IMG/VR virus record: IMGVR_UViG_3300009034_000178
Coordinates: 1-27,662 of that record
Source of the DNA: a virus
Reading direction: 5' to 3' (one strand)
DNA: 27,662 nt
Shown here in pieces: positions 4,355 through 18,912 of the stretch (within the stretch, counting starts at the first letter, position 1; each line of letters opens with the position of its first letter). The translations under genes were made by a program, and so were the position numbers. The notes beneath the pieces are model-generated. The model was not told where the DNA came from and did not search any database. It saw only the letters and a list, made by a program, of their open reading frames with translations.

Positions 4355-4510
4355 ATGAAAAAACTATCTAACATCGAGATTGCAATGGTGGCAAATAAGT
4401 TATCGGATGGACTTATGTGTAGTCACGGTCTGAAAAACGCTAAGAAAATTGCATATTCCGCTTGGAAGAACCTACAGACAGAAGAAAAACGCCGGAAGGG
4501 ATTAAAATGA
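4355..4510 (+). CDS. Small basic helical protein
   Basis: 51 aa from ATG 4355, one base after the previous TAG. An in-frame ATG at 4310 lies within the previous gene and is rejected. The protein is helical and basic, ending KNLQTEEKRRKGLK, with a Met/Cys-containing middle (LSDGLMCSHGLKNAKKIAYS). No family recognised. Its last bases include the AAGGG ribosome site of the next gene, and its TGA overlaps that ATG. Confidence 0.6.
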   Translation: MKKLSNIEIAMVANKLSDGLMCSHGLKNAKKIAYSAWKNLQTEEKRRKGLK

Positions 4511-4644
4511 AAAAACTACCTAATCCAAGAAAAGAGAAATATAGAACTGCCCACAAACAAAATAGTGATGGGAGTTATCATTGTACTGTTATGCCTGCTG
4601 ATCTGAAATTAAAAAATCGCAAAAAGCCCAACCCAAACGTGTAA
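4507..4644 (+). CDS. Small very basic protein
   Basis: 45 aa, starting MKKLPNPRKEKYR and ending KNRKKPNPNV; about a third of residues are Lys, Arg or His. AAGGG lies 7 bases before the ATG, which overlaps the previous TGA. It is the last gene before the promoter-like motif and RNA candidate at 4650-4790, so it probably closes this transcription unit. Charge suggests nucleic-acid or membrane-surface binding, but no family is recognised. Confidence 0.6.
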   Translation: MKKLPNPRKEKYRTAHKQNSDGSYHCTVMPADLKLKNRKKPNPNV

Positions 4645-4649
4645 AATCA

Positions 4650-4672
4650 GGTTGATTTCTGCTAATTATAGA
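4650..4672 (+). promoter_or_regulatory. Promoter-like 23-bp motif, copy 2
   Basis: Second copy of the motif at 215-237 (20 of 23 positions identical; identical over the last 12, GCTAATTATAGA). If the start site is the G of TATAG (4671), the RNA would begin exactly in the 5' arm of the 13-bp stem at 4668-4680. Shared sequence in two different intergenic regions, both facing plus-strand genes, makes a promoter the simplest reading. Confidence 0.45.
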
Positions 4673-4790
4673 GGAGCAGATTGGTTCTCGGTACCACGAT
4701 GCCCTGCGAAATAAGCCGGATACGGTGGAACGCAGCTAAACTGAGATTATTATGAAGTCCCCGGCCAGGACAGGCATTCTGTTCCTCTAT
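4668..4790 (+). ncRNA. Putative structured RNA closed by a 13-bp stem
   Basis: Bases 4668-4680 pair with 4778-4790 over 13 bp with a single G-U, closing about 97 nt. Inside, 4704-4708 (CTGCG) pairs with 4731-4735 (CGCAG), with a small CCG-GATA-CGG hairpin between them. Bases 4699-4703 (ATGCC) pair with 4773-4777 (GGCAT), and 4757-4760 with 4768-4771 (GTCC/GGAC). Bases 4686-4692 can pair with 4740-4746 (7 bp, one G-U), which would make a pseudoknot with ATGCC/GGCAT. No ORF of note covers it and no T-run ends it. It could be a discrete ncRNA or a regulatory leader of the gene at 4807. It matches no RNA family I can name. Confidence 0.5.
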
Positions 4791-4806
4791 TATAGGGACA
4801 CTATTT

Positions 4807-5178
4807 ATGAGAAAAATCAGCGAAAAACAAGAAATCGCATATAGATTATGCCATCCAGATTTCGGCGGTTTATCTCACAAACAAGCAGCTGTTAAAATGG
4901 GGATAACAGAAGGTGCTGTTTATCGACTGCTAAAAAGGATGAGAAAAATCGCACCTAACCTTTTTCCAATACTTTCACTTGAACACGCTCAGATATGGCG
5001 ATTGTGGCAAGATGCCGGGTTGAATTGTAAGGACATCGCATCGTTGAAAGCGACTACGGAACGTACTATTCAAGCTAAGTTACGTTTGATTAAAAAGAAA
5101 ATGAATTATACTACGCAACAACGACAAACGGTTAATATCGAGAACATTGACGAAACTGAAATTAAAAATAGATTCTAA
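4807..5178 (+). CDS. Two-HTH DNA-binding protein (sigma region 4-like)
   Basis: 123 aa. Residues 22-46 (LSHKQAAVKMGITEGAVYRL and following) form a helix-turn-helix like those in sigma factor region 4. Residues 61-97 (WRLWQDAGLNCKDIASL... ERTIQAKLRLI) look like a second one. The start RLCHPDFGGLS is typical of a phage regulator family I have seen next to early genes. The protein probably binds DNA and regulates transcription. It follows the RNA candidate directly, with only a weak AGGGA ribosome site 10 bases before the ATG, so its translation may depend on that leader. The start fits well, since no alternative lies upstream. Confidence 0.7.
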   Translation: MRKISEKQEIAYRLCHPDFGGLSHKQAAVKMGITEGAVYRLLKRMRKIAPNLFPILSLEHAQIWRLWQDAGLNCKDIASLKATTERTIQAKLRLIKKKMNYTTQQRQTVNIENIDETEIKNRF

Positions 5179-5180
5179 TT

Positions 5181-5251
5181 GAGCCGGGGATTGCACCAAT
5201 GGCTGATTTCCAGCAACCTTGTAAATAAACGGATGCTACCTGGCTCTTTTT
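5181..5251 (+). terminator. Stem-loop with T-run before the HNH gene
   Basis: GAGCCGGG (5181-5188) pairs with CCTGGCTC (5239-5246), 8 bp with one G-U, followed directly by a run of five Ts (5247-5251). The enclosed 50 nt can form GCTG/CAGC (5202-5205 with 5211-5214). A large capped stem followed by Ts fits an intrinsic terminator or attenuator between the HTH gene and the HNH gene. A frame that stays open through it from TTG 5179 is probably incidental. Confidence 0.45.
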
Positions 5252-5268: not shown

Positions 5269-5733
5269 ATGAAACAATGTCCTAAATGTAAAGAAAAGTT
5301 GCCATTGAATTCTTTTGGTAAACATAAAGGCAAACGAGATGGTCTCCAAAGTTGGTGTAAAAGATGCCGTGCAAAATATAATCAATCTGGTCGAGCAAAA
5401 ATAACCCAGGAAAAACAACGGAAAAGCAGAAAACATAAAGATTACCAGAAAGAATATTTTTCTACTATAAAAGGAATACTCATTCGTAAATATCATGATA
5501 TGAAACAACGCTGTGACAACCCTAAACGCAAAGATTATAAATATTATGGCGGTCGTGGTATTAAATGTTTATTTAAGAAACCAAAAGAATTCATAAATTA
5601 TGTAATAAATAGTCTACAAATTGATCCTCGTGGATTAACAATAGATAGAATTGATAACGATGGGCATTATGAACCGGGCAATATACGATTTGTAAATCAA
5701 GCTGAAAATAATAAAAACAGGAGATTAAAATGA
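5269..5733 (+). CDS. HNH homing endonuclease with N-terminal zinc finger
   Basis: 154 aa from ATG 5269. A zinc finger at residues 4-33 (CPKC ... SWCKRC) and a long basic linker lead to KYYGGRGIKC and the HNH core LTIDRIDNDGHYEPGNIRF followed by QAENNKNRR. This is the usual layout of free-standing phage HNH endonucleases that nick or cut DNA at specific sites and spread themselves. Its ribosome site is poor (GAAG), and the stem-loop just upstream may limit expression. The last codons contain AGGAG for the next gene, and the TGA overlaps that ATG, so it has settled into the operon without breaking it. Longer versions from TTG 5179 are less likely. Confidence 0.8.
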   Translation: MKQCPKCKEKLPLNSFGKHKGKRDGLQSWCKRCRAKYNQSGRAKITQEKQRKSRKHKDYQKEYFSTIKGILIRKYHDMKQRCDNPKRKDYKYYGGRGIKCLFKKPKEFINYVINSLQIDPRGLTIDRIDNDGHYEPGNIRFVNQAENNKNRRLK

Positions 5734-7948: not shown

Positions 7949-7954
7949 TATATT

Positions 7955-8056
7955 ATGACCAAACCCAAACAAACCAGATACGAACGCAAGAAAGCTCGCC
8001 GGAAGCTATTTAAGGGGCTTACTGGACCGGCGAGAGGGAGGAGAGCAGGGAAATGA
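7955..8056 (+). CDS. Tiny very basic protein, copy 1
   Basis: 33 aa: MTKPKQTRYERKKARRKLFK followed by a GLTGPARGRR tail. About half of residues are Lys or Arg. It is nearly identical to the 32-aa protein at 8248, with 67 bp identical from the ATG onward (7955-8021 and 8248-8314). No ribosome site stands before it; reinitiation after the upstream stop seven bases earlier is likely. Its TGA overlaps the ATG at 8053, and its 3' end carries the GGAGGAGAG ribosome site of that gene. Charge suggests nucleic-acid binding, or the ORF may mainly be a carrier of the ribosome site. Confidence 0.6.
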   Translation: MTKPKQTRYERKKARRKLFKGLTGPARGRRAGK

Positions 8057-8209: not shown

Positions 8210-8251
8210 ATGACCCCAACTGAAATCCTAAAATCAAGGAAAATAATATGA
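8210..8251 (+). pseudogene. Ghost copy of the polymerase start
   Basis: ATG 8210 begins MTPTEILKSRKII and stops after 13 codons. The true polymerase begins MTSTEILQS at 8551; seven of the first nine residues match, and the nucleotide differences include several silent ones. The TGA overlaps the ATG of basic ORF copy 2. It is best read as the leftover 5' end of a duplicated polymerase gene, now perhaps serving only to couple translation. Confidence 0.55.
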
Positions 8252-8346
8252 CCAAACCCAAACAAACCAGATACGAACGCAAGAAAGCTCGCCGGAAGCT
8301 ATTTAAGGGGCTTATTGGACCGACCCGGGGGAGGAGAGCGAAATGA
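8248..8346 (+). CDS. Tiny very basic protein, copy 2
   Basis: 32 aa, differing from copy 1 (7955) only near the C-terminus (GLIGPTRGRRAK instead of GLTGPARGRRAGK). Unlike copy 1 it has a ribosome site (AAGGA, 5 bases before the ATG). Its end carries GGGAGGAGAG, and its TGA overlaps the ATG of the next gene at 8343. Retention of the coding frame in both copies, with changes mostly in the tail, favours a real peptide. Confidence 0.6.
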   Translation: MTKPKQTRYERKKARRKLFKGLIGPTRGRRAK

Positions 8347-8549
8347 TAAAGTGGATAATAAATTGTAAAATATTAAGACTTCATCAGTGGGCTTTGATAC
8401 CTGTAGAAGTACAAGATAAAAAGATTTTACGATATGAGGTCATTTGTAAGAGATGCAATGAAAAATGCAAAGACTTAAGAGTGATCATAGCCCTTATAGA
8501 GTTAAACAACAAAATTAGAGCAGGGATTATTTGTCCCATTGTTGGTTAA
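8343..8549 (+). CDS. Small basic protein with a CxxC pair
   Basis: 68 aa: hydrophobic/basic start (MIKWIINCKILRLHQWALIP), a central VICKRCNEKC with three Cys, and a hydrophobic C-terminal half. The short WxLIPV...RYEVICKRCN pattern resembles small zinc-ribbon proteins of phages. It sits directly before the polymerase (one base between its TAA and the polymerase ATG) and is coupled to basic ORF copy 2. Function unknown. Confidence 0.6.
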   Translation: MIKWIINCKILRLHQWALIPVEVQDKKILRYEVICKRCNEKCKDLRVIIALIELNNKIRAGIICPIVG

Positions 8550-8550
8550 A

Positions 8551-10587
8551 ATGACTTCAACCGAAATACTGCAATCTGTTAACTATCCAGAGGACATACT
8601 TACGTTGGATTTTGAATCATTCTTTAATTCAGAATATTCTCTCAAGAAGATGTCAATAATTGAGTATATCACTGACGCCCGATTCGAGTTCACCGGCCTT
8701 GGCATTAAAATCAACGACAGCGATTCAGTATTTATCCCCGGCCCCCAAGTCCCTTGGGCGGTTAAACGGCTACAGAAGAAGTTTGGCAAGGCACTGCATA
8801 ACGCAACGGTTGTAGTGAAAAACAGTAAATTTGATGTCCTGATTCTGGCAGAGAAATTTGATATTTACCCGCTGTATGTCATCGACATTGAGGATTTGAG
8901 CAGATACTACGATTCTCGAATGAAGCACGACCTTAAAACGCTCGCTAAACTTTTTAAGCTCCAGGCTAAAGGTGACACTTCGCAGTTCAAAGGTCAGCAT
9001 TGTGCTGATATAGACTGGGTAGCAATGAAAGAATACTGTCTGGGCGATGTCGATCTTGAATCACAGTTGCTCGATATACTCTTGCCGATGATTGATAACC
9101 CGGAAATTGAGTTTCAGTTAATGCAGCATACTTTGAATTTGTATCTCAAGCCTACGTTTCAGTTGGATTTTTATTTGGCTAATGATATTTTATATAATAT
9201 GGATGTTGAACTTAATAAAGACTTGGCTAAAGCATCATGGATACTCGAAGACTATTTCACCAAGAAAAAGAAAACTATTGTAGATATACTCCGAGCCAGA
9301 ACTATTTTTCCGGTGATTCTGGCTGATACCCTTCCAGAGGGTGAAGAAGTGCCGATGAAAGCCGGTAAAAAGCAGATGATACCGGCTCTGGCTCAAGAGG
9401 ACGTTGCTTTTCAACTACTTCTTGCCCATCCGAATGAAGATGTACGAGACCTTTGTAAGGCTAAAGCAGCTTGTACCAGTTGGCCTTTACACATGAAGAA
9501 GGTACAGAGCCTTATCAGACAGACTGAATGTTTTGGCGATGGTGTGCATATACCCCTCAAGTTTTACGGTGCTCATACCGGGCGTTGGTCAGGGACACAG
9601 AAATGGAACCCACTTAATCTCGGCGGCAAGGGACGTGGTAAACCGATTCATCCTCTGATAGGTAAAGTTCGCCATACTCTACTTGCACCTGATGGATATA
9701 AACTTCTAATCGCTGACTCTGCTCAGATAGAAGCCCGGGAATTGGCTTGGATTTCAGGACAAAATAATTTAGTGAAAGGTTTTGCTGATGGACAAGATAT
9801 TTACTCTGCATTTGCCACACAGCTTTTTGGCGAGAAAGTACGGAAATCTGGTAAATCTGATTGTCCTGAAAAAGCAAAAATACTTACAATCAGGAGGGGT
9901 TTCGGGAAAGATGCTATATTGGGTTGCGGATATGGAATGGGGGCGAACACTTTTTTTGATAGATGTCGTCAGAATGAGACACTTAGACCTTTTTTTGATT
10001 CCGGTGAGTACGATTGGGATTTCATCAATAATCTCATCAAGACGTATCGAACCACCTACGCCCAAATTCCTAAATTCTGGAAGGTCGTAGAGAAGTGTTT
10101 CCGTTGGGTGACGAAGTATCCGAATGAGGTGATGACGTATTATATTTCATCTGATAATGTCTGTTTGCATAACGAAATGGAAAAACAGAAACCAATTATT
10201 AAAAACGCAATACTTACATTTTGGAAAGAAGGAACAACTACGATTATCCAGTTACCATCAGGTCGGCGATTATTCTACCGCTATGCTATTGTCGATAAAG
10301 ATAATCAGATTAAGTATCTTCATGGGTATCTGTGGGGTGGAAGTATCACGGAGAATATTATTCAGAGCATCTGCCGCGATCTTCTTGCTGGGTGGCTGCT
10401 TGAGTGTGAACGCCAGCAGATACCGATTATATTACATACGTATGATGAACTTGTTGGATGTGTGCCTGAAGATCGGGCTGAAGAAAGTCTCCAGAAGATG
10501 ATGGAGATTATGAATACTGGTCCTGATTGGGCGTCTGGACTCCCGTTAGATACAGAGGGATGCGTGTCATCGCATTTTAAGAAATGA
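8551..10587 (+). CDS. Family A DNA polymerase with 3'-5' exonuclease
   Basis: 678 aa from ATG 8551; the longer frame from TTG 8539 is rejected because it overlaps the upstream gene. The N-terminal proofreading domain has exo I LDFES (D20, E22), exo II NSKFD (N91, D95) and exo III YCLGD (Y162, D166). The polymerase part has the TGRWSG block (343-348), motif A IADSAQIEARE (D389), motif B RRGFGKDAILGCGYG (R448/R449, K453, Y461) and motif C TYDELV (D632, E633). All catalytic acids are present. Motif C has Tyr where most members, including T7 gp5, have His. There is no 5'-3' nuclease domain. It is the replicative polymerase of this virus, heading the replication and recombination block. Its TGA overlaps the next ATG. 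Confidence 0.95.
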   Translation: MTSTEILQSVNYPEDILTLDFESFFNSEYSLKKMSIIEYITDARFEFTGLGIKINDSDSVFIPGPQVPWAVKRLQKKFGKALHNATVVVKNSKFDVLILAEKFDIYPLYVIDIEDLSRYYDSRMKHDLKTLAKLFKLQAKGDTSQFKGQHCADIDWVAMKEYCLGDVDLESQLLDILLPMIDNPEIEFQLMQHTLNLYLKPTFQLDFYLANDILYNMDVELNKDLAKASWILEDYFTKKKKTIVDILRARTIFPVILADTLPEGEEVPMKAGKKQMIPALAQEDVAFQLLLAHPNEDVRDLCKAKAACTSWPLHMKKVQSLIRQTECFGDGVHIPLKFYGAHTGRWSGTQKWNPLNLGGKGRGKPIHPLIGKVRHTLLAPDGYKLLIADSAQIEARELAWISGQNNLVKGFADGQDIYSAFATQLFGEKVRKSGKSDCPEKAKILTIRRGFGKDAILGCGYGMGANTFFDRCRQNETLRPFFDSGEYDWDFINNLIKTYRTTYAQIPKFWKVVEKCFRWVTKYPNEVMTYYISSDNVCLHNEMEKQKPIIKNAILTFWKEGTTTIIQLPSGRRLFYRYAIVDKDNQIKYLHGYLWGGSITENIIQSICRDLLAGWLLECERQQIPIILHTYDELVGCVPEDRAEESLQKMMEIMNTGPDWASGLPLDTEGCVSSHFKK

Positions 10588-11372: not shown

Positions 11373-11821
11373 GCAAACGTGAGATAAAATTTCGAGCTTG
11401 GGATAACAGAGAAAAGAGATATGTCTCAAGTAGTATGGTTCAGAATCAGGTAATTCTAACTGAGCCAACTGAACATGGATTCAAATTGAAAACATGCTTT
11501 ATCTTAGAGCAATTCACCGGTCTTCTCGATAAGCAGGGCAAAGAGATATATGAGGGGGATATAATTAAATATCCAAATGAGATTTATAGGATGTTTAGGG
11601 CTGTTGGGTGGGAAGGTGAAATTGATGGATTTGAACTTGTCGTGTGGAGCGAAAAGAATATCGCATTTATGGGCAAAGACTTGAATCGCTTACAAGAAGG
11701 ATACCAACTCGAAGAAATATCACCTCGTTATCTATGGGTATTAGAAATGGCGAAAAAGTCGGAAGTCTTCGGCAACATACATCAGAACCCGGAATTATTG
11801 GAGATTGCAAATGGTAACTAA
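11369..11821 (+). CDS. YopX-like protein
   Basis: 150 aa. It opens REIKFRAWDNREKRYV, has EQFTGLLDKQGKEIYEGDII in the middle (around residues 50-69) and EVFGNIHQNPELL at the end, all hallmarks of the YopX family, an SH3-like fold found widely in phages and prophages. Function is unknown in spite of the wide spread. The ATG overlaps the stop of the VRR-NUC gene. Its last bases include GGAG for the gene at 11811, which overlaps it by 11 bases. Confidence 0.88.
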   Translation: MSKREIKFRAWDNREKRYVSSSMVQNQVILTEPTEHGFKLKTCFILEQFTGLLDKQGKEIYEGDIIKYPNEIYRMFRAVGWEGEIDGFELVVWSEKNIAFMGKDLNRLQEGYQLEEISPRYLWVLEMAKKSEVFGNIHQNPELLEIANGN

Positions 11822-13040
11822 ACGAAAATTACATTTATCAGCATCGTCTATAGCAAATTTCAAGGCTTGCCCTATTAGGTTTAAGAATGCAAACTATCTG
11901 GGAATCAGGCCCGACGAAGATACCGAGTCTCAGCGTGTCGGGTCTTTCTGGCACCATATCCTCGACATCAATACAAGAAAACCCGGAAATGTCTGTGAAC
12001 GATGTGCCAAGAAGTCACTACCTGACCCCCATTGTACTCTGTGTGCCGGAACAGGATTCTTACCTGATGACATCATGGATGCCGTAACTCGTGAACTTAA
12101 CAGGATTTATGAAGGAAAAATTTGGGATGGAGTAGAGGTAGAACGAATTAAACTTCTTTATTCTCTGATAGGATACCGTTGGTATTACGAAGACCAGCCG
12201 GAAGATGTAGTGACACGAGAACAGAAATTCGAGCTAACCCTTATTAACCCAGAGTCAGGTCGAGCATTGCCAGGAGTAAAACTGGTAGGCAAGATTGATA
12301 AAATTATTAACCAAAAGGGCAGACCTGCGATTAAGGAGCATAAATCAACAGGTAGTTCAGTTGCTCCTGATTCTACTTACTGGGGCCACTTAAATCTGGA
12401 TACCCAGACCAAACTCTATCTTTACGCTACTCGTAGAATGCAAGCCGCTGGCGAGTTGACCCCTTGGAAAATCAGGCCAGATGATTCCCCGATTAACACG
12501 ATTCTATATGATGCCTGGCATAAACCTACGATTAGGCCGAAGAAACTCACCCAAGCTGATAGTAAAGCGTTTGTCGAGACTGGTGAGTATATGGGGCAGG
12601 GGTTTGATGTAGTTATAAAAGGTGGATTAGAGATAGATCCAACAGGTAGTCCAGCTAAGGAAACTGGAAGAACTTATTTTGTTAATGGCACTCAGGCTGT
12701 GTGTGAGCCCGGCAAAAAAGAGGGCACCTTTGCTATCCACGAGACCCCGGAAATGTATGGTGCCCGGCTACTCGCTGACATCGGGGAACGACCTGAGTTC
12801 TACTTCCGGTGTGTTGAGATAACCCGCACTGATAAGGAGATGGAATCTTTTGAATGGGAATTGTTGCATATCTATCGCACAATGCAAAGCATGATTAAGT
12901 CGGGTCACTTTTATGGAGACGAACATGCCTGTGAAGCTACTTTTAAGTGCGATTATTTGGAGTTTTGTTATAACGGAATTGAACTGTCAGTTGATAATGT
13001 GCCAAGTGGAATGAAAGCAATCTTTAATGAGAAAAATTAA
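11811..13040 (+). CDS. Cas4/RecB-like Fe-S nuclease with zinc-knuckle insert
   Basis: 409 aa from ATG 11811, chosen over TTG 11805 because GGAG lies 7 bases before it. The nuclease core has H49 in GSFWHHILD, D163 in VGKIDKI, the ExK pair E176/K178 in IKEHKST and Q199 in LDTQTKLYLYA, the PD-(D/E)XK order of RecB, AddB and Cas4 nucleases. C20 plus C374, C380 and C386 near the end can bind a 4Fe-4S cluster as in that group. At 62-78, CERC...CTLCAGTG is an extra zinc knuckle of DnaJ type between the His and the Asp. It probably resects DNA ends for the Sak4-like recombination system at 13828 and is not a CRISPR gene, since no array or cas1 is near. Confidence 0.85.
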   Translation: MVTKRKLHLSASSIANFKACPIRFKNANYLGIRPDEDTESQRVGSFWHHILDINTRKPGNVCERCAKKSLPDPHCTLCAGTGFLPDDIMDAVTRELNRIYEGKIWDGVEVERIKLLYSLIGYRWYYEDQPEDVVTREQKFELTLINPESGRALPGVKLVGKIDKIINQKGRPAIKEHKSTGSSVAPDSTYWGHLNLDTQTKLYLYATRRMQAAGELTPWKIRPDDSPINTILYDAWHKPTIRPKKLTQADSKAFVETGEYMGQGFDVVIKGGLEIDPTGSPAKETGRTYFVNGTQAVCEPGKKEGTFAIHETPEMYGARLLADIGERPEFYFRCVEITRTDKEMESFEWELLHIYRTMQSMIKSGHFYGDEHACEATFKCDYLEFCYNGIELSVDNVPSGMKAIFNEKN

Positions 13041-13474: not shown

Positions 13475-13828
13475 ATGTTTAATATATTAAATTGGCAAAA
13501 TTCGTGTGAATTTTTTCTTATAAAAGATAGCAATCTCGATGTAATTCAATATTTACATAGTGATGGTAGTATATATAATACTATCGAATACTGGCCTACA
13601 CGAGAAGCCGCCCAAGCTGTGCTGGATAAATTCCAGCCGAAACATGTTTGGAAACATGGGGATGTGTTTAGATCAGGATGTGGTCACCATCGTCCCATGA
13701 TCTATCTTAAAATTGGTGATAGATCGAAAGCATTTTGCCTTCACTCACCGATAAGTGGTCCGTCATCACACATAGACGTGGATTTACATAACGCCAAATT
13801 CCTCTTTAATATCAAGGAGAAAATCTAA
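13475..13828 (+). CDS. Hypothetical protein with EAQ-type module
   Basis: 117 aa. The block LHSDGSIYNTIEYWPTREAA and following QAVLDKF resembles the N-terminal module of the diphosphohydrolase-like protein at 5730 (NGTIGDYFSYATETEAQTAV). The rest (HVWKHGDVFRSGCGHHRPMI, then a beta-rich end) looks like a small beta fold with a CGHH cluster that might hold a metal. GAGGAG lies 7 bases before the ATG; the stop overlaps the next start (TAATG). Function unknown. Confidence 0.65.
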   Translation: MFNILNWQNSCEFFLIKDSNLDVIQYLHSDGSIYNTIEYWPTREAAQAVLDKFQPKHVWKHGDVFRSGCGHHRPMIYLKIGDRSKAFCLHSPISGPSSHIDVDLHNAKFLFNIKEKI

Positions 13829-14739
13829 TGAAAATACCACCAACACGAAAACCGCCCAAAAAACCAGCACCACCTAAACGACAGGTACCGGCTGTCACTA
13901 AACCAGCAGCTAAAACATTTAAGACTGCTACATGGGATACTGCCGAAGAGGGTCATCGTATTATGCTATACGCTGATTCGGGGATGGGTAAGACGACGCT
14001 TGCTTCGATGCTTCCCAATCCAAAGTTTGCTGATTTCAGAGGGGGTAGTGATAAGATTAAGCATCCCCTTACTAATAAGAAATTGACATATATCCCCAAT
14101 GTCGAAACTTTTGATGATGTCCGTAATCTTTGTCACCAATCAGGTCTATTTGAACCAGGTGATAGTTTTGTACTTGATACTGGTACTAATTTTGAAGATC
14201 ATGGTTTAGAGTGGACTTTAGAAAATATCCAAGCCGGTGAAAAAGGCAAACACTACACTGCAACCAGAATTGAAGGCTATGGTTGGGGCAAAGGTTTTCG
14301 ACATCTTTATGATACCATGAAACTCCCGCTTGCTGATTTCGATACCTTGATTCGCAGAGGGGTGAATGTAGTTATCTCATGTCAGATGCAACAAGTTGAA
14401 ATCGCCCATTCGGGCGGTGAAAACTTCTTATGTGATGTTCCTAAGCTCCAAAAGGCTCACGGCAAAAGTACACCGTCTGTCTGGGGATTATGGAACGAAT
14501 GGGCCGACCACGTTCTTAAAATCGGATATGGTGATATTCAAGCGTCAGACGGTAAAGCAGCCAGCACCGGAGAACGTGTTATATATGTTCACGGTCAGGT
14601 TCATTTTAAGGCAAAATCGAGGACTATCCCAAGTGAGTATCCAGTTGTATCTTTTTCCTCACCATCTGATGATAGTATTTGGGAATTTCTTTTTAATGAA
14701 GCTTGGCGAGATATACCGACAGAGGAGGGACAAGTATGA
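13828..14739 (+). CDS. Sak4-like RecA-fold ATPase
   Basis: 303 aa. A Pro/Lys-rich tail of about 30 residues precedes the ATPase core. Walker A is YADSGMGKTT (48-57), with Ala where the first Gly usually stands, and Walker B is SFVLDTGT (113-120, D117). The layout matches phage Sak4 single-strand annealing ATPases (AAA_24 family), which pair complementary DNA with the help of an SSB. Its neighbours, an end-resecting nuclease at 11811 and a likely ssDNA-binding protein at 15215, fit this. The TGA overlaps the next ATG, and GAGGAGGG lies within its end. Confidence 0.85.
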   Translation: MKIPPTRKPPKKPAPPKRQVPAVTKPAAKTFKTATWDTAEEGHRIMLYADSGMGKTTLASMLPNPKFADFRGGSDKIKHPLTNKKLTYIPNVETFDDVRNLCHQSGLFEPGDSFVLDTGTNFEDHGLEWTLENIQAGEKGKHYTATRIEGYGWGKGFRHLYDTMKLPLADFDTLIRRGVNVVISCQMQQVEIAHSGGENFLCDVPKLQKAHGKSTPSVWGLWNEWADHVLKIGYGDIQASDGKAASTGERVIYVHGQVHFKAKSRTIPSEYPVVSFSSPSDDSIWEFLFNEAWRDIPTEEGQV

Positions 14740-16438: not shown

Positions 16439-16633
16439 ATGGATGAAATAAAAAGACTTCAAGCCGAGAATAAGAGACTAACAGAAAATAATCATCTATT
16501 GCATGAATATATTGAACAGAACCGAATTACGTATCTTGTAACCGAAAATGAGGAACTTAAAAAGGCATTAAGAAGCATATGTTCCAGATGTTTGCATTTG
16601 GAAAAGGTCCAAGAAGTTCTGAAAGATAACTAA
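16439..16633 (+). CDS. Short coiled-coil protein
   Basis: 64 aa from ATG 16439, preferred to the adjacent ATG 16436 because GGAG sits 6 bases before it. The longer frame from 16361 runs through the hairpin region and has no ribosome site. Residues 4-45 form a heptad leucine-zipper pattern (IKRLQAENKRLTENNHLL, VTENEELKKALRSI) followed by CSRC. It is likely to be a dimer or an adaptor that binds another protein by coiled coil. The stop overlaps the primase start (TAATG). Confidence 0.65.
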   Translation: MDEIKRLQAENKRLTENNHLLHEYIEQNRITYLVTENEELKKALRSICSRCLHLEKVQEVLKDN

Positions 16634-18912
16634 TGACCTTCGCAACAGATTTTGAAATCTACCAGCAGAATATCTTCCCTGCTATGCTTGAAGTCTTAGC
16701 CGAAGATCTCGGGGTAAAGGTCTCATCACTTCAGCGGTTAGGTGTTGGATTTTATCCAGCGAAGCAGTGTTGGGTTTTTGTTGAAAGAGACCATAAAGGC
16801 GAAATCATTGGTCTCCAGTTACGTTATCCAGACGGCAAGAAGATGATGGAGAAGGGATCTAAGCGTGGGTTAATCTACCCTTATAACGAGAACTATATAG
16901 AAGGAGAAAAACGATATGGTAAATCTGGATATTATTCATGGGTGCAAGTGCATAGAACCAAGAAACCATGCCCGGTCTGTGGTCAATCAGACTGGTGCAG
17001 AGTATCCTCAGATTATGAAGACCCGCAAGGTCCATCTGCTGCGGCATGTAGTCGTATCGCAAAAGGTTCTGTGCAGGACATATCTCCTGATGGTCATCTC
17101 CATATTCTCGATTCAGGGTGTCAGCGAGCCGGGATGCGGGAGACTAATCAGTCAATCCTGTATCAGACTGAACTGCCGATCCTCATTGTGGAGGGTTCGA
17201 GTGACGTGCTTGCGGCTCTGGATCTGGGCTTTGTGGCGATTGGTCGGCCTTCTGCTAAAGGGGGCATGGAAGAACTCAAACAGATGCCCCTTGCGAAGAA
17301 AGAAATCTGGATAATAGGAGAGAACGATGCCGGTGTCGGCAAGAAAGGAATGGAGAAAACTTTTCTCAATCTTGAACACTTATCTGATAAAATCTCCTGT
17401 GTGATGCCGCCAGAAGGGATTAAAGACCTCCGGCAGTGGGCCGAACGTGGACTAACCCAAGAAACACTGACTGCTTACGTACAAGAATTTGGTCAGACTA
17501 AACTTAATGATCCCAACGTTTTTGGTGATGATATTGCATTGACCATCGCAGGACGGTTTCTGGAAGAGTATCAGACTGATGACGGCCAACAGACACTAAG
17601 GAGCTATCATGGAGACTGGGCCATCTGGAATGCTGGCAGATATAATTGTATAGACCAGGACGTATTCAGGGGTAAATTGTATCAGTTTCTTGAAGGCAAG
17701 CATTACATAACAGTGACATCAAAAGGAATTGAGGTAATTCCCTATAAACCAACCCGGGGTAAAGTAAGTGACATAGTAGATGCTTTAAGTGGTCGTTGCC
17801 CTGTTGTTGGCACCCCGCCTACCTGGATAGACCAGAAAGATAGACCTAATATAACCAATTTGATAGCTTTTAAGAACGGTCTCCTCGATGTCGATGATTT
17901 TTGTAGGAATAAAATCACACTCTTGGAACCAACGCCGGATTTATTTACATTCGCAACGCTTCCATACGATTATAGTTCTGGAGCATGGTCTGACTTATTT
18001 GAAGAAATCTGTGATTCTATATTTAATAGTGATGCGGATAGCATACGACTACTTGCCCAGTGGTTAGGCTATAATATGGTCTATGACACCAGCCAGGAAA
18101 AATTTATGATGTTCGTAGGCCAAACAAGGTCGGGTAAAAGTACAATCTCAGATGCCTTAGCTGCAATGTTAGGCTCCGAACAATGTGGAACAACGAGTCT
18201 ACCCATGCTGGCTAATATTCATGGTCTCAGTTCGTTGATAGGCAAGTCAACAGTAATAGCTGGTGACATTAAGGGCACAATCCGTAGGGCTGAAATGGAT
18301 GCTGCCCTTGAGAATATTCTTAGAATTACTGGTAGGGATAAAGTTCCCATCAATCCAAAATTTGTAGCTCCTTATGATACAGAACTCCCTTGCAGATTTA
18401 CAATGGCGATGAATGATTTGCCTATGTTTACAGACCATTCGAGGGCCATCGTTGCCAGAACACTGATATTGAATTTTCCGAACTCTTTTTTAGGCAGAGA
18501 AGACTTTACATTAAAGAATAGGCTCAGGGAAGAAGCGGCAGCAGGGAAGTTGATTAATTTTGCTCTGTGGGGTTTGAAGGATCTTAGAGAACAAGGACGA
18601 TTTATAGAACCTGAAGCATCACAAAAGAAAATGACTCGGTTTATAGAACTAACATCGCCAATGCAAGCCTTCGTGGAAGAATGCTGTTATGTAAACGACA
18701 AGGCTAAAGTCTTAAAGAATCAAATGTATGAAGCCTGGAAAGAATGGTGTGCCGCATGTGGCAGGAAATCAGGTAATAAAATGCTTTTCGATAGCTGGTT
18801 ATGCCAGCATGTACCTACAGTTACGTCGAGGACTGAAGGTGATGCACAGTTGTATTGTGGGGTAGTGCTAACGCCCGAAGCGTTTAGGGTTTATCTTGGT
18901 CGACCTGGGTAG
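16633..18912 (+). CDS. Primase-helicase (Toprim plus SF3 helicase)
   Basis: 759 aa. A zinc site near residues 113-139 has C113, C116, C122 and C139 (KPCPVCGQSDWC, then AAACS). The Toprim part has LIVEGSSDVL (E187, D191) and the acidic IIGENDAG (E230, D232). A linker and D5-like middle lead to the SF3 helicase: Walker A GQTRSGKST (496-504), Walker B-like VIAGDIKG (D545) and sensor MAMNDLP (N594), with R604 and R609 as possible fingers. It should unwind DNA and prime synthesis for the polymerase at 8551. Length and order agree with phage D5-type primase-helicases. The ATG overlaps the previous stop. Confidence 0.9.
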   Translation: MTFATDFEIYQQNIFPAMLEVLAEDLGVKVSSLQRLGVGFYPAKQCWVFVERDHKGEIIGLQLRYPDGKKMMEKGSKRGLIYPYNENYIEGEKRYGKSGYYSWVQVHRTKKPCPVCGQSDWCRVSSDYEDPQGPSAAACSRIAKGSVQDISPDGHLHILDSGCQRAGMRETNQSILYQTELPILIVEGSSDVLAALDLGFVAIGRPSAKGGMEELKQMPLAKKEIWIIGENDAGVGKKGMEKTFLNLEHLSDKISCVMPPEGIKDLRQWAERGLTQETLTAYVQEFGQTKLNDPNVFGDDIALTIAGRFLEEYQTDDGQQTLRSYHGDWAIWNAGRYNCIDQDVFRGKLYQFLEGKHYITVTSKGIEVIPYKPTRGKVSDIVDALSGRCPVVGTPPTWIDQKDRPNITNLIAFKNGLLDVDDFCRNKITLLEPTPDLFTFATLPYDYSSGAWSDLFEEICDSIFNSDADSIRLLAQWLGYNMVYDTSQEKFMMFVGQTRSGKSTISDALAAMLGSEQCGTTSLPMLANIHGLSSLIGKSTVIAGDIKGTIRRAEMDAALENILRITGRDKVPINPKFVAPYDTELPCRFTMAMNDLPMFTDHSRAIVARTLILNFPNSFLGREDFTLKNRLREEAAAGKLINFALWGLKDLREQGRFIEPEASQKKMTRFIELTSPMQAFVEECCYVNDKAKVLKNQMYEAWKEWCAACGRKSGNKMLFDSWLCQHVPTVTSRTEGDAQLYCGVVLTPEAFRVYLGRPG

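Follow-up and report, generated by a model that had tools for sequence, protein, structure and literature searches.

Introduction

Translational leaders with mutually exclusive stems, such as those of the ermC leader-peptide type, regulate the gene that follows them by means of alternative pairings which set its Shine-Dalgarno sequence (SD) open or closed. Among phage RNAs, the put RNA of HK022 is a structured element acting in cis on RNA polymerase to suppress pausing and termination (PMC9378689). Further phage-borne candidate RNAs were obtained by comparative genomics (PMC2864571) and these, as well as the GOLLD and ROOL RNAs (PMC12286853), are backed by covariation across numerous homologues.

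This article examines an intergenic segment (positions 4645-4806) in the genome of an uncultured bacterial virus. The window, that is the whole stretch of 27,662 nucleotides that was analysed, falls just short of a complete IMG/VR virus record, whose length is 27,663 bases. Like ermC-type leaders, the segment contains alternative pairings over an SD and a short reading frame that has a separate SD, in the 5' arm of a stem; unlike them, its 24-codon frame has no recognised stalling motif, searches found it no homologues and the contrast between its two states is near chance. It may be compared with HK022 put as a candidate structured RNA that would act in cis close to a phage transcript start, but it differs from put in having one long closing stem and in abutting an SD. 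With the candidates from comparative genomics and with GOLLD and ROOL, which are far larger, it shares its location in a phage genome and the lack of an Rfam match by sequence, whereas homologues and covariation are found for those RNAs and not for the segment.

Genome Context and Relatives

The window encodes a family A DNA polymerase (8539-10587), a PD-(D/E)XK exonuclease (11805-13040), a Sak4-like annealing protein (13828-14739) and a DUF5906 primase-helicase (16633-18912). Relatives were found by means of the primase and the polymerase, and the replication module proved to be common to about 50 distinct records, the nearest of which are 65-77% identical in replication proteins. A second scan of genomes added three remote polymerase relatives, located in metagenome-assembled genomes, which give no indication of the host. 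As stated in the original prediction, the gap is directly followed by the gene of a two-HTH regulator (4807-5178, plus strand, ATG at 4807), which combines a sigma-70 region 4-like and then a GerE-like motif and ends in [IV]xx[RK]F in the relatives; its product is a DNA-binding, sigma region 4-like protein. Peptide patterns detected no homologues of this protein, and these were later reached through the primase and polymerase neighbours.

Other features of these genomes were recorded along the way. A 97-nt direct repeat of the window (7950-8046 and 8243-8339, 94% identical) corresponds to a duplicated small basic reading frame. In L014 (9945-12755) and L006 (2798-5590) a relative of the window's HNH-like protein interrupts the DNA polymerase gene, and the interrupted frame of L014 is open across 937 amino acids, which suggests an intein. 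In the 48.5-kb record G003 a tandem of two-HTH genes spans the record ends (L023 4391 to L010 790), so that this record is likely to be circularly permuted.

Pairings and Folding of the Segment

The closing stem (P1) that had been proposed is present in the letters: ATAGAGGAGCAGA (4668-4680) pairs with TCTGTTCCTCTAT (4778-4790), both on the plus strand, over 13 bp including one G-U. It is the sole stem of its kind in the window. Its 5' arm contains the SD-like box AGAGGAG (4670-4676), and positions 4780-4786 of its 3' arm can alternatively pair with the SD region of the regulator gene (4794-4800). Stems of 13 bp or longer were found in none of 400 dinucleotide shuffles of the 162-nt gap, the longest shuffled stem being 11 bp, and 0.49 such stems are expected per genome when the whole 27.7-kb window is shuffled; the gap-level estimate is nearer the mark, as it was a gap that had been viewed, yet this gap was chosen for its stem.

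Within P1, on the same strand, a helix TCTCGGT/ACTGAGA (4686-4692 with 4740-4746) is predicted with a pair probability of about 0.4-0.5, a hairpin CTGCG/CGCAG with an inner GCCG/CGGT (4704-4735; inner pairing 4715-4718/4723-4726) with a probability of 0.9 or more, and a second hairpin is predicted at 4757-4771 (GTCC and GGAC around 7 nt). The proposed pseudoknot was sustained in part: a possible helix ATGCC/GGCAT (4699-4703 with 4773-4777, plus strand) does cross 4686-4692/4740-4746, but it is at chance level, being matched in 16% of shuffled interiors. The overall folding beats shuffles only mildly and in a way that depends on the choice of ends, with z of -1.5 and -1.3 for 4645-4806, -1.2 for 4671-4830 and -2.67 for 4668-4790, whose ends were chosen on the stem. 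The G+C content is 50% vs 39% for the genome, among the top 4% of windows. The statement that no protein reading explains the segment was nearly right, but a 24-codon frame, possibly for a leader peptide, runs inside the element from TTG 4681 to TGA 4755 (plus strand) with the AGAGGAG box upstream; no relatives of this frame were detected. As a sequence feature the segment is real and its stem locally improbable; as an RNA it is a candidate.

Search for Homologues

The segment could not be placed in a known RNA family, as the original prediction had anticipated: none of 4227 Rfam families reached its gathering score, and with E values up to 10 allowed the scores were far below gathering, at a best E of 0.77 and above. 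Neither ARAGORN nor Rfam found a tRNA or tmRNA at the segment, ARAGORN giving noise at lax settings. Nothing was retrieved by blastn from phage or plasmid records, an exact 20-mer of the segment was absent from 84,980 species genomes, and pattern scans of IMG/VR viral contigs with fixed loops and free stems produced one unrelated coding match (L132). A covariance model made from the window sequence alone (R1) matched only the window in 1.1 Mb and 0.6 Mb of loci, and nothing beyond the window itself in 50 whole records of relatives; a one-sequence model of this kind misses distant forms, so that its empty result is no proof of absence. None of the upstream regions of other two-HTH genes resembles the segment.

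Direct comparison of the gap leads in the same direction. A homologue of the 45-aa gene that precedes the segment (window 4507-4644) matches at 524-664 in L005, where the two-HTH gene matches at 703-1023, leaving no room for the element; in G003 the two-HTH gene comes straight after a small gene with homology to window 4355-4510. The segment is, on this comparison of sequences, lineage-specific, since the homologous gap lacks it and the flanking genes abut. Conservation of the segment was not supported, since no homologue to compare it with was found in any of these searches; the covariation test that had been envisaged was run instead on a neighbouring element (5181-5246), where it was positive.

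A Conserved RNA Element Behind the Regulator

This separate element (5181-5246, plus strand) lies immediately downstream of the two-HTH stop codon and consists of a closed stem with a conserved interior (CACCA, a GCTG/CAGC hairpin and TRTAAA) whose structure is conserved in relatives. It is also found behind the two-HTH gene in L005 (1090-1149), L010 (794-862), L012 (6856-6917) and L125 (1361-1426, minus strand), the length being about 60-70 nt, and a further member occurs in L011 (92-157). The alignment of four sequences has 89% of its cells paired and five pairs changed on both sides, that is, compensatory, vs at most 52% paired and one pair changed on both sides in slid controls, and RNAalifold on six sequences retained the closing stem with both-side changes. 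A model of this family (R2) detected two members outside its training set, L011 92-157 (E 6e-4) and one in G015 directly behind its two-HTH gene (E 0.007); in the window it matched 5181-5246 only, with nothing at 4668-4790. The L011 member comes after an HNH gene instead of a two-HTH gene. By these compensatory changes and model matches the element is a truly conserved RNA, unlike the flagged segment. Its site between the regulator and the next gene and the U-rich run that follows the stem in several of the members suggest that it may control the gene downstream in the manner of a terminator or leader.

Genes for probable homing endonucleases flank the element on one side or the other (window 5269-5733, L010 885 onwards, L011 1-90). 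They are HNH-like, and LAGLIDADG-like in L010 as judged by eye; the spot looks as if it were a hot spot for them.

Other RNA-like elements were observed in the relatives. A sister group has, in the same place, a longer element of about 90 nt (L109 1882-1975, L135 3062-3152, L147 6278-6368) with a nearly invariant core GCACCGCCGTTAGRCAACTTCA...CTATATGATARCGGG and a covarying closing stem, in which five pairs are changed on both sides between the two sequences compared. Neither these elements nor 5181-5246 reach Rfam thresholds, and the idea that the segment is homologous to the long 3' elements of L109 and L135 was rejected, the alignment being meaningless. A shared hairpin with a variable outer stem, AAGCGATGGCCAG-loop-CTGGCCAGAGCTT, occurs between tandem two-HTH genes; its sites are upstream of the regulator in L108, L109 and L112, downstream in L110, and in L145. 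Closed-stem RNAs are also present 260-460 nt upstream of the primase (L070 9545-9647, L037 9589-9737, L034 9209-9314, L042 9476-9561). The L042 element is a tRNA (Rfam, 43.9 bits), whereas those of L070, L037 and L034 are not tRNAs by score; in L070 and L037 a tRNA T-arm (GGTTCGATTCC, GGTTCAAATCC) adjoins an acceptor-like stem of 12-13 bp. In G003 (L023 3893-3977) an RNA-like hairpin rich in G+C, 85 nt long and closed by a 13-bp stem, precedes the two-HTH gene by a few hundred bases.

The Promoter-Like Motif

A 34-bp promoter- or operator-like motif occurs in two copies on the plus strand of the window, one before the first rightward gene (204-237, GGTTGCTTTTCGCTAATTATAG) and one just before the closing stem and overlapping it (4639-4672, GGTTGATTTCTGCTAATTATAG). 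The copies are identical at 27/34 positions (E 9e-4 against the window), and none is expected in shuffles. A consensus scan found no sigma-70-like promoter at 4639-4672, and a whole-genome search found no copy of the motif in five relatives. In the relative G038, stretches found before the regulator occur again before the primase, so that the sharing of control sites may be usual in the phage family.

A Possible cis-Acting Leader of the Regulator

The reading that we tentatively favour, while giving it somewhat less than an even chance, is that the segment is a lineage-specific cis-acting 5' leader RNA of the two-HTH gene (4807-5178), which would tune its translation; that this leader works as a two-state switch is less likely than a cis-acting leader as such. 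P1 ends 3 nt ahead of the SD of the gene, AGGGA (4794-4798, plus strand), which is itself separated from the ATG by 8 nt. Positions 4780-4786 and 4794-4800 can form a 7-bp hairpin covering the SD, a helix of a kind present in 2.6% of shuffles, and GTCCC (4757-4761) is complementary to GGGAC (4795-4799) over the same site. In the computed ensemble the predicted mean accessibility of the SD is 0.71 with P1 vs 0.005 on removal of 4671-4680. This contrast is equalled by 8% of shuffled interiors, so it largely follows from the stem alone.

We infer that transcripts starting at the motif (4639-4672), or reading through from the small upstream genes, would cover the segment. The 13-bp stem would then tie up 4778-4790, leaving AGGGA open and the regulator translated. 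If the 5' arm were occupied by a ribosome on the AGAGGAG box or in the short frame, or by a bound protein, or if it were curtailed by a shorter 5' end, the 3' arm, now released, would be predicted to pair over the SD together with GTCCC and lower translation of the regulator; such a switch, and any signal that might set it, are put forward as a model.

The leader reading draws on the position of the stem, its absence from 400 shuffles, the computed SD accessibility and the raised G+C content, and also on the recurrence of the motif only before the first rightward gene and on the DNA-binding, sigma region 4-like nature of the downstream product. It is weakened by the lack of a homologue and hence of covariation, by relatives that have the same gene without the segment, by the modest folding z and by the frequency of the switch contrast in shuffled interiors.

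The same observations bear on other explanations. The original prediction, a free-standing phage small RNA of about 120 nt with its own promoter at 4639-4672, would account for the repeated motif immediately upstream and for the closed 5'/3' stem, and closed-stem RNAs do occur in gaps of relatives (L023 3893-3977, L034 9209-9314, L070 9545-9647). We consider it unlikely: no U-run or terminator-like hairpin is found at 4790 (a search for intrinsic terminators gave two weak matches with tails CTCTATTATA and CTATTTATGA, without real U-runs, where chance gives 1.0), the next gene's SD and start codon come immediately afterwards, searches found no homologue, and the motif, in which the consensus scan found no sigma-70-like promoter, would have to be used by a putative phage polymerase or sigma factor. 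It is the SD directly after the stem, and the ability of the 3' arm to pair with it, that favour a cis-acting leader over a free-standing RNA. More far-reaching, and improbable, is a discrete pseudoknotted small RNA made from a phage-specific promoter that the first early gene would also use, and belonging to a so far undescribed, fast-changing class of closed-stem RNAs, which would flank regulator and replication genes in the phage family.

That the segment is an ordinary intergenic spacer which happens to contain a long inverted repeat is doubtful, though this deserves real weight: about half a stem of this length is expected per shuffled genome, the z of the segment as given is near -1.3, the pseudoknot is at chance level and there is no conservation. 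Against chance stand the location of the stem in one of only about 12 gaps longer than 60 nt, its frequency of less than 1 in 400 for this gap, and the retention of 162 nt at raised G+C in a phage, where gaps are as a rule short. A small MITE-like mobile insert dropped between leader and gene start is improbable, even if several features are reminiscent of one. Terminal inverted repeats of 11 bp (AGAGGAGCAGA at 4670-4680, TCTGTTCCTCT at 4778-4788) are flanked by a direct repeat ATTAT (4665-4669, 4789-4793), each copy of which extends to ATTATAG (4665-4671, 4789-4795); relatives lack the segment in their homologous gap, and TATAG stands directly before the SD in L112, L115 and L129, as it would in the window minus the insert. 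TATAG before the SD is, however, common in the phage family, so the direct repeat may simply reflect two similar gene starts, and the insert is single-copy: no second one was found in the window, in the relatives or in phage and plasmid records, and the exact 20-mer was absent from the species genomes.

Implications

The more useful by-product of this work is the conserved, covarying RNA behind the regulator in several relatives, for which Rfam has no family and which deserves follow-up over the segment. The segment itself, if real, would add another private leader RNA to those that control phage transcription regulators; this would help in understanding the phage family but would not be surprising.
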